A stretch of 21,964 nt of DNA from a virus, in the IMG/VR virus record IMGVR_UViG_3300017989_000479, positions 1 through 21,964 of that record. One strand, given 5' to 3'. A model generated the notes under the pieces. It worked only from the letters and a program-made list of their open reading frames with translations, searched no databases and had not been told where the DNA came from. The position numbers and the translations under genes were made by a program. Of this stretch, positions 2,263-21,964 are shown piece after piece; position 1 is the stretch's first letter; the number at the start of each line of letters is the position of its first letter.

Positions 2263-3932
2263 AACGATACACACGCAAGGTGCGATTGCAGGAGCGGACA
2301 TTCCCCCGACGTGGCCCGCAGGCTGTTTCGAGGGCACCGCATGACGACTATTGGTATCAGCCGAGGCCTGGAGGCGCGACGGCCGGAGGGGTCGCGGTGA
2401 CCGAAGAGTCGGCGATGACTTACGCCACGGTGTGGGCCTGCGTCAACAAGCTCAGCAAGACCATTGCCACGCTGCCGGCACACATCAAAGAACACACCGG
2501 CACGAACGCGACACGCAACGCGACCGAACAGCGGTTGGATTCGCTGTGGCGGGTCAAGCCGAATGATGACATGACGGCCGTTCAGTTCCGCGAAGCCGTG
2601 ATGGCCAACGTTCTGTTGTGGGGCAATGCTTACATTCTGATCGAAGAGGATTACAGCGGCATCAAAGCGTTGCAGTTATTGCTGTCTCGCCATGTGACGG
2701 TCGACCGTCGGCAAGATGGCAAGCTGATCTACGACTATCGCGAACCGGGCAAAGAATTGAAGACGTACCAGGCCCACCAGGTCCTACACATCGCGGGGCT
2801 CGGGTTCGACGGAACGATGGGACTGTCGGTGATCGGCTACCATCGGCAGACGGTCGGCGTAGGGCTCGGCGCAACGAATCACGTCAACTCGTTTTTGGAG
2901 AACGGCGCACAGACCGGCATGGTGATCGAGCGGCCCCTAGACGCGCCCGACCTGTCCAAGGATGGCGAGAACCGAGTACTCGATTCGTTTGACGGTCGGC
3001 ACGTGGGGTCGGGGAACGCCTGGCGGACTGCGCTCTTACGCGAGGGGATGACGCTCAAAGCCGTTGGGATGCCACTGAAAGACATGGAGTTTATTTCGCT
3101 CCGGCGATTCCAAAAGGGCGACATTGCGGCGATCTTCGACGTGCCGCTGACGAAGATCCACGAGAACGAGCGCGACACGTTTTCCAACGTCGAGCACAAA
3201 AACATCGACTGGAAAACCGACTCGATCCTGCCGTGGTGCGTGCGGCTGGAAAACGCGGTCGACGCCAAGTTCTTCGAGGGGACGAGCTTCTTCCTGAAAC
3301 ATAACCTGGCCGGGCTGGTTCGCGGCGACACCGAGACGCGATACAACGCCTATGCGGTCGGGCGTCAATGGGGCTGGTTGTCGGCCAATGACATCCGCGA
3401 ATGGGAAGACATGAATCCGATAGAAGACGGGGACGTGTACCTGTCGCCGATGAACATGGTGCCTGCCGATCAGGTAGGCGAACTGCCAGCGAAGGAAACG
3501 CCGGCACCCAACGCGCCCGACCCGACGAAGGCAATGGACATGCACGGCCCGTTCCGCCGATTGGCCACCGAAGCCGCCCAGCGTTGCGTGACGAAGGAAG
3601 TCAAGGCGGTTGGGAATGCGTGGAGGAAGCACGCGAAAGCCGGGACGGTTGGCGATTTTGTCGCTTGGGCGGAGAAATTCTACGAGGGGCACGCTGGCTA
3701 CATACGTGAGGTCATGCGGCCGGTTGTCCACGAGTGGATTGAGGCATCTCAAAAGAGTGACGATCAGCGAATCATTCACGACGCATCGGAAGTGCGCGAG
3801 CGATTCCAGTGCCTCAGAGCAACGGCAATGGCCGCGCCAGAGCAGGTCCCTCAATTCCTCCAAGACCTATCCGAAACCTTTGCCACCTCGCTGGTGGACG
3901 ATATTGAAAAACGACTAACCGAAGGGACATAA
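2259..3932 (+). CDS. Phage portal protein, HK97 family, with C-terminal extension
   Basis: The portal forms the dodecameric ring at one capsid vertex through which DNA enters and leaves. Typical HK97-portal features are visible: VTEESAMTYATVWACVNKLSKTIA near 47-70 (split here only for reference), a segment with NVLLWGNAYILIEED, and the later FDVPLTKIHENERDTFSN stretch that family members use in the stem or clip. The core appears to end near residue 410 (YLSPMNMVPADQVG). About 145 further residues form a charged, mostly helical tail (PFRRLATEAAQRCVTKEVKAV onward). HK97 portals are usually near 400 residues, so this tail is extra, though similar extensions exist in other phages. It overlaps the terminase stop by four bases and is followed by the protease after two bases. 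Confidence 0.95.
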   Translation: MKRYTRKVRLQERTFPRRGPQAVSRAPHDDYWYQPRPGGATAGGVAVTEESAMTYATVWACVNKLSKTIATLPAHIKEHTGTNATRNATEQRLDSLWRVKPNDDMTAVQFREAVMANVLLWGNAYILIEEDYSGIKALQLLLSRHVTVDRRQDGKLIYDYREPGKELKTYQAHQVLHIAGLGFDGTMGLSVIGYHRQTVGVGLGATNHVNSFLENGAQTGMVIERPLDAPDLSKDGENRVLDSFDGRHVGSGNAWRTALLREGMTLKAVGMPLKDMEFISLRRFQKGDIAAIFDVPLTKIHENERDTFSNVEHKNIDWKTDSILPWCVRLENAVDAKFFEGTSFFLKHNLAGLVRGDTETRYNAYAVGRQWGWLSANDIREWEDMNPIEDGDVYLSPMNMVPADQVGELPAKETPAPNAPDPTKAMDMHGPFRRLATEAAQRCVTKEVKAVGNAWRKHAKAGTVGDFVAWAEKFYEGHAGYIREVMRPVVHEWIEASQKSDDQRIIHDASEVRERFQCLRATAMAAPEQVPQFLQDLSETFATSLVDDIEKRLTEGT

Positions 3933-4792: not shown

Positions 4793-5001
4793 TCCGATTG
4801 ACCCAACGCCAGGAGGACGTGGTTCGGTTCGTGCGTGATTACGTGGCCGAGCGGCACTACTCGCCAAGCGTCCGTGACGTGGCGAAGTGGTTCGGGATCT
4901 CACCCAACGCGGCGTGGTGCCACGTCAAGGCGATCGAGGCGAAAGGCGTGATGGCGCACTCACCGGGGATACCCCGGAGCCTGCGACTACTTGACACCTG
5001 A
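4789..5001 (+). CDS. Stand-alone LexA-type winged-helix DNA-binding protein
   Basis: The 70-residue product matches the LexA N-terminal DNA-binding domain from end to end. It opens with LTQRQEDVVRFVRDYVAER, has the helix-turn-helix region YSPSVRDVAKWFGISPNAA, and closes with the wing-like CHVKAIEAKGVMAHSPGIPRSLRLL. LexA itself continues with an S24 self-cleaving peptidase domain; here the frame stops directly after the winged helix, so RecA-stimulated self-cleavage cannot occur. It is translationally coupled to the protease and followed by a 234-base untranslated leader before the capsid gene. Inference: it may bind DNA near the capsid leader or a host SOS site. A LexA-like domain inside a head operon is not the usual arrangement. 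Confidence 0.88.
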   Translation: MIRLTQRQEDVVRFVRDYVAERHYSPSVRDVAKWFGISPNAAWCHVKAIEAKGVMAHSPGIPRSLRLLDT

Positions 5002-5235
5002 TAATCTAGGGCAATCGCTCGAAATGTGCGATACTACGCCCTGACGAAAACATACGGCAATCGCCGGGTGCCTCGGCAGAGATTCGTGGGCCATGCGGTT
5101 GTAACGATTCGGCGCGATTAGGCAGAGTATCTAACGCGAAGTTTCACGGCTCGATTTACACAATCAGCCCTGGACGCTTCGCGTTTTCCTTTGCGCTGTG
5201 CTCCAGGCATTCCCCGTGACTGGAGTATCAGCACG
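5002..5235 (+). promoter_or_regulatory. Untranslated leader of the major capsid gene with inverted and direct repeats
   Basis: This is a non-coding gap inside an otherwise overlapping gene train. It holds a perfect 9-bp inverted repeat, AACGCGAAG at 5133-5141 and CTTCGCGTT at 5177-5185 (35-base loop), and a direct repeat GGCAATCGC at 5010-5018 and 5056-5064. The capsid ribosome binding site (GGAG, 5222-5225) lies at the downstream edge. No convincing -35/-10 pair was found; TTGACA at 4991-4996 lacks a properly spaced -10. Such a leader could set high capsid expression or be a target of the adjacent LexA-like protein; that is inference. Confidence 0.4.
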
Positions 5236-6585
5236 ATGACCAAGAGACAGAGGGAGCTTGCCCAGCAACGCGAGCAAGCCCGCAACGACGCCAAGGCCAT
5301 TCTGGCCACGGCGGAGGCCGACAACGAACGGGGCCTCACCGAGGAAGAGCAGGCCGCATTCGACGGCCATGTGGCGACCGCCGAGCAGTGCGAGCAGGAA
5401 TATGCCGCCATCGAGGCGCGTGAGCAGGCCGCCTCGCAACTGCGACAAGGCGATGGCTGGTCGCAAGCCCAGCAACCGACCCTCCCCGGTCGCCATCCGG
5501 CGACCGTCACGCAAACCACGCCCCCGCCGCAAGAGCCCGAGGGCTTTTCGACGTTCGGGCAAATGTTGCAAGCCGTGGCGAGTGCCGGCAGCGGCGTCGG
5601 TGCCGTCGATCAACGATTGCTGTCGCCGATGGCTGCCGTCTCGGGAATGTCCGAGGGAGTCGGCGCGGACGGCGGTTTTCTAGTCGGCACCGACATCAGC
5701 AACGAACTGATGAAGCAGACCTACGAGACGGGTATTCTCGCGTCTCGCTGTTCGCGTACGTCGATCTCGGCCAACGCCAACGGTTTGAAAATCAACGGCA
5801 TGAACGAGACGAGCCGCGCCGACGGATCGCAGTGGGGTGGCGTGACGTCCTACTGGCTCAACGAAGCGGGCGAGAAGACCGGCAGCAAACCGGCCTTCCG
5901 TCAGATCGAACTGAACCTGCAAAAGCTCATCGGACTGTGTTACGCAACCGACGAACTGCTGCAAGACGCCTCGGCGTTGGAATCCATAATCATGGAGGCC
6001 TTTCCGAACGTTTTCGGTTACAAGCTCGACGACGCGATCATTCGCGGAACGGGAGCGGGACAGCCGAAGGGCATCCTGGCCGCCGGCCCGAAGGTGCGTA
6101 TCACCAAGGAGACCGGGCAGAAGGCGACAACCATCGTTGCGGAGAACATCGAGAAGATGTACGCCCGCATGTGGTCGCGTGGCTTGTCCAACGCGGTCTG
6201 GCTCATCAACCAGGACTGTTGGCCGCAACTCTTCCAGCTGCACCACGTCGTGGGCACCGGCGGCGTCCCGATGTTCGTGCCCGCCGGTGGTCTCAGCGGC
6301 GCGCCGTTCGGCACGCTCTTGGGTCGGCCGATCATGCCGATCGAGCAGGCCGCGACCCTCGGCACCGAGGGCGACATCATGTTCTGCGACTTCTCGCAGT
6401 ACAAGCTGATCGACAAGGGCGGCATTCAGACCGACTCGTCGATCCACGTCCGGTTCGTCTATGACGAGTCGGTTTTCCGGTTTGTCGTCCGCGTCGACGG
6501 TCAACCGATGTGGGCCTCCGCGTTGACTCCCGCCAACGGCAGCAACACGGTTAGTCCGTTTATCACTCTCCAATCCCGAACCTAA
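5236..6585 (+). CDS. Major capsid protein, HK97 fold
   Basis: This 449-residue protein builds the capsid shell. Residues 1-75 are charged and helical (KRQRELAQQREQARNDAK, then EEEQAAFDGHVATAEQCEQ), which fits the delta/scaffold domain removed by the upstream protease. A Gln/Pro/Thr-rich linker (75-105) follows. From about 130 the HK97-fold signature appears: GVGADGGFLVGTDISNEL, LNLQKLIGLCYATDELLQD, the EAFPNVFGYKLDDAIIRGTG segment and GQPKGILAA, then a C-terminal part with FCDFSQYKLIDKGGIQ and RVDGQPMWASALTP. The open frame can be extended to a TTG at 5191, but ATG at 5236 is preferred because GGAG sits 10 bases upstream and the delta domain begins there. Confidence 0.95.
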   Translation: MTKRQRELAQQREQARNDAKAILATAEADNERGLTEEEQAAFDGHVATAEQCEQEYAAIEAREQAASQLRQGDGWSQAQQPTLPGRHPATVTQTTPPPQEPEGFSTFGQMLQAVASAGSGVGAVDQRLLSPMAAVSGMSEGVGADGGFLVGTDISNELMKQTYETGILASRCSRTSISANANGLKINGMNETSRADGSQWGGVTSYWLNEAGEKTGSKPAFRQIELNLQKLIGLCYATDELLQDASALESIIMEAFPNVFGYKLDDAIIRGTGAGQPKGILAAGPKVRITKETGQKATTIVAENIEKMYARMWSRGLSNAVWLINQDCWPQLFQLHHVVGTGGVPMFVPAGGLSGAPFGTLLGRPIMPIEQAATLGTEGDIMFCDFSQYKLIDKGGIQTDSSIHVRFVYDESVFRFVVRVDGQPMWASALTPANGSNTVSPFITLQSRT

Positions 6586-20349: not shown

Positions 20350-20994
20350 ATGACGACATATGAGCCACCGCCTGGATGTGAGATCCGCGAGGCGATTCGC
20401 GAGGCGATTCAGTTGGCGACGGATACCGACACGATGGTTGAGATGACGTTCAATGGGGTGCGTTGCGAACTGCACCGCCTTTCGGATGCCGCACTGATTC
20501 ATCGTGACTGGGGGCTTGCGATGGAAGGCGTGTTCCCTCTTGGCGTCGGGCCGTTCCCCGCACCCACGCACAGCCCAGAGGTTGCCGAACACATCTCCAA
20601 AGCACGGGCGGAAAACGCACGGCGAGAGCAGGCGAGAGCCAAGGAGCGAGCGGAAAAGACACTCGCGAAAGAATCCAAACTTGCGGAAATGTTGGCCGAC
20701 GCGCCGCCGATTACGCTATCCGATCGACAGACATGGCGGAAGTGCGTTGCAGCGAACAGCGAACCCTACGGCGCGGCGTGCGTGCGGTACGCGGAAAACT
20801 GGGCGAGGCTCATGCAATCGCGAATCGACGCCGGGTGTTCTCTCGACGACGTGGCCCAAGAACTGAGTCACGTTGCGGACACCGAGGGGATTACCGGCTT
20901 CACGTACGGAGCGGCCATATCCATCCTCTCGCAGTGTTGGACACACGGAGATGCCCTGCGAGCGTGGCATGAGGGAGTGGAGGTGTCGCCATGA
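20350..20994 (+). CDS. Phage protein of unknown function with conserved C-terminal domain (214 aa)
   Basis: The C-terminal 95 residues carry a pattern I recall from uncharacterised phage and prophage proteins: TLSDRQTWRKCVAANSEPYG, YAENWARLMQSRIDAG, VAQELSHVADTEGITGFTYG and CWTHGDALRAWHEG. The histidine/acidic SHVADTEGITGF segment is the most distinctive. Residues 80-115 are a charged helix (ISKARAENARREQARAKERA) likely to be coiled coil. The N-terminal part (1-75) is unrelated and starts with a short EAIREAI repeat, visible in DNA as two copies of GAGGCGATTCGC-like sequence. The role is unknown. ATG 20350 has GAGGG upstream, and the stop overlaps the next start (ATGA). Confidence 0.78.
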   Translation: MTTYEPPPGCEIREAIREAIQLATDTDTMVEMTFNGVRCELHRLSDAALIHRDWGLAMEGVFPLGVGPFPAPTHSPEVAEHISKARAENARREQARAKERAEKTLAKESKLAEMLADAPPITLSDRQTWRKCVAANSEPYGAACVRYAENWARLMQSRIDAGCSLDDVAQELSHVADTEGITGFTYGAAISILSQCWTHGDALRAWHEGVEVSP

Positions 20995-21242: not shown

Positions 21243-21270
21243 CGGACCACACACACGGAAGGACAACGGT

Positions 21271-21964
21271 ATGTGTAACTTTTTAAGCGCGATCGTCAAA
21301 CGCAATGGCGACATCATTTGTAAGCCGGACTGCACGGACTCCCACGAAGACCTGATCGACTTCGCCGGGCTGGTCGACGATGGGCGTGGTGCGTTTGTGC
21401 GAGTCGAGTTGACGCCGGATGGCAACGACTTCGCGAATGTCGACGACTACACATTCCGAGTCGACCAGCAAGATACGCCGGACTGGTGGACGGAGGACTT
21501 GGCCGCCAGTGTGGAGGAGTCGCTGCGAGATCGCGTGCGACGAATGATTATTGCCGAGGATCGCAAGATCGTGCTCGGTGGCTGCTGGATTGTGGTCGAT
21601 GGTGCGACGGTGCAGAAATCAATGAACGCGACAATCCGAATGATCGGCGGGACCATCAAGCTGATCTACGGCGGGACCATCGAGCGGATCGACGGCGGGA
21701 CCATCGAGCGGATCGACGGCGGGACCATCGAGCTGATCTACGGCGGGACCATCGAGCGGTTCTACGGCGGGACCATCGTGCGGATCTACGGCGGGACCAT
21801 CAAGCGGATCTACGGCGGGACCATCGAGCGGATCTACGGCGGGACCATCAAGCGGATCTACGGCGGGACCATCAAGCGGATCTACGGCGGGACCATCGAT
21901 CATATCGACGGCGGGACCATCGAGCGGATCGACGGCGGGACCATCGAGCGGATCGACGGCGGGA
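21271..21964 (+). CDS. Octapeptide-repeat protein with conserved MCNFLSAIV N-terminus (partial)
   Basis: The frame runs open past the window end, giving at least 231 residues. The N-terminal 110 residues match a pattern I know from uncharacterised repeat proteins of phages and bacteria: MCNFLSAIVKRNGDIICKPD, then TDSHEDLIDFAGL, FVRVELTPDG, YTFRVDQQDTPDWWTEDL and RRMIIAEDRKIVLGGCWIVV. From about residue 118 (GATVQKSM, NATIRMI) an eight-residue period begins, and from 126 it becomes the regular GGTI-x-x-[IF]-[YD] unit repeated 13 times and continuing. This predicts a beta-solenoid with two strands per turn or similar. AAGGA at 21259-21263 precedes the ATG. Function unknown; no catalytic motif is visible. 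Confidence 0.82.
   Translation, partial: MCNFLSAIVKRNGDIICKPDCTDSHEDLIDFAGLVDDGRGAFVRVELTPDGNDFANVDDYTFRVDQQDTPDWWTEDLAASVEESLRDRVRRMIIAEDRKIVLGGCWIVVDGATVQKSMNATIRMIGGTIKLIYGGTIERIDGGTIERIDGGTIELIYGGTIERFYGGTIVRIYGGTIKRIYGGTIERIYGGTIKRIYGGTIKRIYGGTIDHIDGGTIERIDGGTIERIDGG
21646..21964 (+). repeat. 24-bp tandem repeat array (13 full units and a partial)
   Basis: Units start every 24 bases from 21646 with GGCGGGACCATC, then variable bases for codons 5-8. Thirteen full units end at 21957 and a fourteenth begins at 21958. The first 12 bases are the same in all units; changes are confined to GAG/AAG/GTG/GAT, CGG/CTG/CAT, ATC/TTC and TAC/GAC. Since 24 is divisible by three, unit gain or loss keeps the reading frame. 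Confidence 0.97.

Follow-up and report, generated by a model that had tools for sequence, protein, structure and literature searches.

A phage carrier domain bearing octapeptide arrays and other exchangeable, variable C-terminal modules

The 21,964-bp virus record IMGVR_UViG_3300017989_000479, analysed over its whole length (hereafter, the window), stops inside a gene whose product runs from a conserved N-terminal domain (N-domain) into a tandem array of octapeptides. What kind of phage protein is built in this way, how does its array change, and does the array belong to the domain that bears it? Judged from sequence comparison, the conserved N-domain is a carrier and the repeat is one among several exchangeable variable modules, which in one clade of relatives include the target of a diversity-generating retroelement (DGR).

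The octapeptide array and its carrier domain

Tandem Repeats Finder (TRF) located the array at 21645-21964 (period 24, 13.3 copies, 92% matches, no indels, score 528), with all other tandem arrays in the window scoring ≤51. The array is in frame and encodes GGTI-x-x-[IF]-[YD] octapeptides. The original prediction described a near-invariant unit start followed by variable residues 5-8, and this is what we found: GGCGGGACCATC is the same in 13 of the 13 complete window units, and the last four residues are E/K/V/D, R/L/H, I/F and Y/D, respectively. The array itself is no artefact. Because the record ends inside it, its true end and copy number lie outside the window.

The same phage is represented by an intact copy in L006, a 41,145-bp virus contig with 99.93% identity to the window over 5,579 bp, in which the complete gene encodes 198 amino acids, with nine units followed by GDMR and a stop codon. 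A monomer AlphaFold2 prediction of this protein, run with a 22-sequence alignment, had a mean predicted local distance difference test (pLDDT) of 90.2 and a predicted template modelling score (pTM) of 0.82. Each octapeptide was modelled as one strand of ~6 residues, with two-residue turns between strands, and pLDDT was about 92-95 in the repeats until close to the end. The model supports a regular beta-solenoid; a regular solenoid had been proposed for the array, with structure prediction as its check. The N-domain was predicted as b-b-a-b-b-a (pLDDT 81.6). Foldseek searches of PDB with the full model and the N-domain gave no match with E<0.001; the BFVD matches were two phage proteins, both uncharacterised, and the bactofilin BacA was a weak match (TMt 0.35, E 2.6).

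Three phage records were recovered by whole-protein tblastn, and profile searches with the ~110-residue N-terminal region yielded 29 and 61 viral loci and 11 genome contigs, for about 70 relatives, whose named hosts are mostly gut clostridia and Bacteroidota. The N-domain follows the motif line MC.F.S ... DSHEDL ... FVRVE..P ... VDQ...PDW; across the 31 members of one alignment (A4), S6, R44, E46, P49, D65, P70 and W72 are invariant, and C2, S24 and H25 are near-invariant. By its invariant N-domain residues and profile matches, the window gene belongs to this carrier family (MC.FKS). Sequence searches of Pfam, PHROGs, NCBIfam, PADLOC and PDB gave no family match for the N-domain, which together with the number of relatives upholds the earlier suggestion, to be checked by such a search, of a widespread but undescribed family. 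HTH_26, RecR_C and Bflower_2 were rejected as below cut-offs, with matches confined to the low-complexity array. The family was absent from the plasmid collection searched and was present in 3 of 391 Clostridia genomes sampled, two of the three being seeds, a rarity indicating that the domain behaves as a phage gene. We found no account of the carrier family, or of an exchange between array and DGR on one carrier, in the open-access literature. In one DGR-type relative (L028), Cys2 is replaced by Gly and the near-invariant His25 by Tyr, which suggests that these two residues work together, maybe in an active or metal site.

Module exchange, copy number and hypermutation

Arrays of 8- or 9-residue solenoid units are the commonest module among the relatives, and the same carrier bears 8-residue arrays of GGTIERIY, DSATVRAY, GSATIENA and NSSVVAWE and 9-residue arrays of GSATVENIC, SSQVGEMWG and DSSTVQRMY. 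Other members have pentapeptide-like repeats (L053, judged by eye), MORN repeats (L020; PF07661, E 2.6e-12), 18-mers (L037) or 19-mers (L035, L099), and two have only two repeats (L051, a close homologue, 45% identical) or one (L063). A DUF6273/C-type-lectin-like module is restricted to one clade. In the N-domain tree (102 columns, 70 rows, many forks poorly resolved), this DUF6273 (DGR) type forms a single clade (support 100/87), and there are many switches between the 8-mer and 9-mer states, with starred branches that force 8-9 changes. Dulem virus 35 bears 9-mers, and its N-domain shares 60% identity with that of the DGR type. The earlier picture of a conserved N-terminus followed by repeats therefore stands as regards conservation, but it overlooked that the carrier bears other C-terminal modules, including a DGR-hypermutated, lectin-like one. 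Two virus contigs each hold two carrier paralogues with different arrays (L011/L012, 170 kb; L078/L085, 92 kb).

The DGR-type relatives are L016-L019, L028, L061, L062, L065, L067, L069, L072 and L074. Template repeat (TR) and variable repeat (VR) were analysed in five of these loci (L016-L019 and L028), each with an 83-87-bp imperfect copy of the 3' end of the gene a few hundred bases downstream and, also downstream, a reverse-transcriptase (RT) open reading frame (ORF) with YMDD. Differences between VR and TR fall at TR adenines in 16/16, 8/9, 14/15, 13/14 and 17/17 cases (68/71 in total). The N-domains of L017, L018 and L019 are identical, and their differences lie almost all inside the VR. 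These five loci are DGRs by definition. Among the scanned flank proteins, six matched RT and six matched Avd, equal to the number of DGR-type loci in the scan. The DUF6273 assignment is weak (20.2 bits for L018 and 20.0 for L016, against a cut-off of 23.5; no match for L028). The window/L006 gene does not qualify as a DGR target, as neither an RT family nor a lectin domain was found among the scanned window and L006-neighbour proteins. DGR-type carrier genes occur in large virus records (G010-G013; 142-201 kb, several integrases), each of which might be a large phage, a phage-plasmid or a misclassified element.

Array length differs between near-identical phages. The first five units are alike in the window and L006, after which at least eight more follow in the window and four in L006, giving arrays of at least 13 and of 9 units. 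Both sides of the array are assembled in L022 and L023, with flanks ~99.97% identical, and a single block of exactly six 9-mers (nonapeptides) is all that separates their arrays. Copy number thus changes without loss of frame, as had been anticipated. About 20 relatives stop in or near the array, like the window (L021, L025, L027, L029, L030, L038, L040, L043, L046, L056, L059, L060, L081, L088 and others). As arrays break assemblies, databases probably under-represent the family.

Variation between units was counted in 28 arrays after removal of both end units of each; a single-base codon variant was counted only once, and the expectation was calculated from consensus codons with transitions weighted twofold. 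There were 118 amino-acid-changing and 17 silent variants, against an expected 99.1 ± 5.1 changing (z=3.7). This non-synonymous excess is a modest, pooled signal, and it agrees with selected variation between units, one of the two possibilities (selected or tolerated) that had been raised.

Genomic setting and known systems

Table 1 Features of the repeat gene in the window and genes named in related records
Record	Feature	Position	Strand	Remarks
Window	Gene with Tad4 domain	20350-20994		Directly upstream of repeat gene
Window	Shine-Dalgarno-like GGAAGGA	21257-21263	+	7 bases 5' of ATG; candidate from sequence alone
Window	Repeat-protein gene, 5' part	21271-21963	+	ORF; 231 codons (231+ amino acids), open at contig end
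Window	N-terminal carrier domain, residues 1-113	21271-21609	+	Common to ~70 loci; AlphaFold2 N-domain model
Window	Transition: decayed proto-repeats GATVQKS / MNATIRMI, putative solenoid cap	21610-21645	+	Sequence; AlphaFold2 strands 113-118, 121-125
Window	Octapeptide array, 13 complete GGTIxx[IF][YD] units and a partial one; predicted beta-solenoid	21646-21964	+	TRF, translation, AlphaFold2
L006	Complete repeat gene	5001-5597		Nine units
L006	CsrA homologue	5680-5868		Just 3' of repeat gene
L028	DGR-type carrier gene	3001-3771		Cys2 and His25 replaced
L111	Bbp36 units	32776-33705		Bordetella phage

The window record also encodes terminase, portal, S49 protease, tape-measure, integrase and helix-turn-helix genes, with the repeat gene ~8 kb from the tape-measure gene, past the integrase. 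The gene order in L006 is integrase, Tad4-domain gene, small membrane-like ORF, repeat gene, CsrA homologue, large ORF and YqaJ recombinase. Recognisable neighbours among 117 flank ORFs of relatives include anti-repressors, cI/S24 repressors, integrases, ERF, SSB, Gam, exonucleases, YqaJ and helicase loaders, among them a DnaC loader. Such repressor, integrase, recombination and replication neighbours place the gene in the early/lysogeny region, in keeping with the original prediction.

The Tad4 (type I Thoeris inhibitor) domain of the upstream window gene (PF25186, E 7.8e-27, residues 123-208) lies behind an extra ~120 N-terminal residues, and the window phage may carry an anti-Thoeris gene. 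A conserved link between Tad4 and the repeat gene was rejected, as 1 of the 117 flank proteins of relatives matched, and this was L006's own copy. The CsrA homologue matches PF02599 (E 6e-16).

The Bbp36 VR2 of Bordetella phages BPP-1, BMP-1 and BIP-1 is, like the window array, a 24-bp in-frame octapeptide array (GTATAG plus two variable residues). The cI repressor lies a few genes upstream of its gene, and its copy number varies between near-identical phages, as in this family (14 in BPP-1, 21 in BMP-1, 20 in BIP-1 and 7 in vB_BbrP_003); the relevant part of a published account gives 9-20 copies and describes VR2 as not essential (PMC2884959). Bbp36 differs in its carrier, DUF7666 (PF24703), and in a conserved C-terminal cap, and its homology to the carrier family was rejected (hhalign of A4 against Bbp36, probability 0.2%; no DUF7666 match in L006). 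Bbp36 units (L111, L112, L148, L149) vary mostly in the last two residues (YR, ES, NY), and a relative of the DUF7666 carrier in Burkholderia phage Mica is annotated as an ice nucleation protein. Mycobacteriophage Tweety gp54, Che8 gp57 and PMC gp51 have a copy-number-variable tetrapeptide/octapeptide array right of the integrase, which differs in its repeat and has been suggested to be unstructured (PMC2884959); Pfam gave no match to the gene.

The C-terminal triple-stranded beta-helix of T4 gp5 shares the octapeptide periodicity, and the cut-off of its family (PF22178) was passed by L011 (39.7 bits) and L078 (35.8 bits), with no match for the window and L006 proteins. Unlike T4 gp5, the window-type gene is outside a baseplate context, and AlphaFold2 predicts its solenoid confidently from one chain. 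Bactofilins, pentapeptide-repeat proteins, RTX proteins and ice-nucleation beta-rolls are likewise regular beta-solenoids of short repeats, but their repeat signatures differ and none has a significant sequence or Foldseek match to the window protein. For bactofilins, there was no Pfam match beyond the weak BacA similarity in Foldseek; for pentapeptide-repeat proteins, the pattern A(D/N)LXX contrasts with the window period of 8, GGTIxxIx.

DUF6273 is a known C-type-lectin DGR target in Faecalibacterium prophages and tentaclins, according to parts of two studies (PMC10743442, PMC11792537). The DGR-clade relatives resemble those proteins in their VR/TR pairs, Avd and RT and in having the VR in a DUF6273-like domain, whereas the window protein is without DGR or lectin domain. 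In the same parts of these studies (PMC11792537, PMC10743442), no carrier N-domain is described for the DUF6273 DGR proteins. Bordetella VR2 is an already known case of an octapeptide array of variable copy number in an early phage gene; the module-swapping carrier appears to be new.

A proposed binding module under pressure to change

We see about an even chance that this early-region phage protein combines a fixed effector or anchor domain with a fast-diversifying binding module. The conserved ~110-residue carrier would be the effector or docking domain, and the C-terminal module would be selected for fast change. Units would be gained or lost in frame when identical 24-bp units recombine unequally or slip during replication, which would alter how long the array is and in what register its surface residues lie, and exposed positions would diversify by point changes; in relatives, the carrier presents a 9-mer, pentapeptide, MORN, 18/19-mer or DGR-rewritten DUF6273/C-type-lectin-like module. 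A fixed N-domain with a module diversified by two routes has the look of a binder that is pressed to follow a partner as it changes. The protein is probably non-virion and would act inside the cell, with the module binding a ligand and the carrier delivering the effect; the ligand may be a fast-evolving intracellular factor of the host or of a rival phage, such as a defence component, receptor or repressor. More tentatively, the whole family may be intracellular and non-virion, one effector domain with swappable hypervariable recognition modules, forming a variable-receptor system against host defences or competing phages.

Several points weigh against this interpretation. In phages, DGRs usually target tail proteins of the virion. 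The DGR clade represents one acquisition, and the equivalence of modules thus rests on the shared carrier and not on repeated parallel fusions. For the N-domain, no homologue of known function was detected, and we infer its effector or anchor role. Array homogenisation could be partly behind the scarcity of synonymous variants, and single array lengths may be misassembled, because the window and most of its relatives are contigs built from short metagenomic reads. Finally, the phage status of the DGR-type records rests on the IMG/VR call, and the four DGR-type records searched gave no PF04860 portal or PF03354 TerL match.

The main rival, which we consider unlikely, is a virion-displayed adhesin or receptor-binding protein comparable to Mtd and Hoc-like proteins, with the carrier anchored on tail or capsid and the module binding host surface or mucus. 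Tail spikes often contain long solenoids, some arrays pass the T4 gp5 C-terminal cut-off (L011, L078), and phage DGR-diversified C-type-lectin domains are usually receptor-binding, as parts of two studies indicate (PMC10743442, PMC11792537). The gene, however, lies outside the tail module, amid repressor, anti-repressor, recombination and replication genes. Neutral expansion, in which slippage would lengthen and shorten a merely tolerated array and its variation would have no function, is improbable: identical DNA units slip readily and arrays dwindle to two repeats or one (L051, L063), but frame, turns and strand pattern are retained in every array, unit variants show a non-synonymous excess, other folded modules have repeatedly been substituted, and DGRs target the same carrier.

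Still more doubtful is a structural mimic or scaffold, in which the solenoid would imitate DNA or another polymer, or self-assemble like bactofilin, with length setting reach and not specificity. The pentapeptide proteins MfpA and Qnr mimic DNA toward gyrase, and both the pentapeptide-like repeats of L053 and the weak BacA match lean this way. Array net charge, however, runs from -9 to +6 over 58-205 residues and is not consistently acidic, on which ground we rejected a general role in DNA mimicry, and mimicry cannot account for the DGR-type lectin module on the same carrier. Least probable of all, short-read repeat collapse might explain why window and L006 differ in array length and why the contigs of ~20 relatives end in or near the array; against this stand distinct marker bases in units, the clean six-unit block separating L022 and L023, each assembled through both ends, and similar variation among Bordetella phage records (7, 14, 20 and 21 copies).

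DGR hypermutation and tandem-array recombination appear on one small phage domain set amid lysogeny and replication genes, not tail genes. Two such different routes of diversification suggest that an early phage protein has a target which changes fast, a surprise as long as DGR targets are regarded as receptor binders. The Bordetella VR2 array joins a wider class of early phage proteins in which a conserved N-domain is followed by a copy-number-variable octapeptide array, and a concrete gene family is now available for deletion, interaction and copy-number work.
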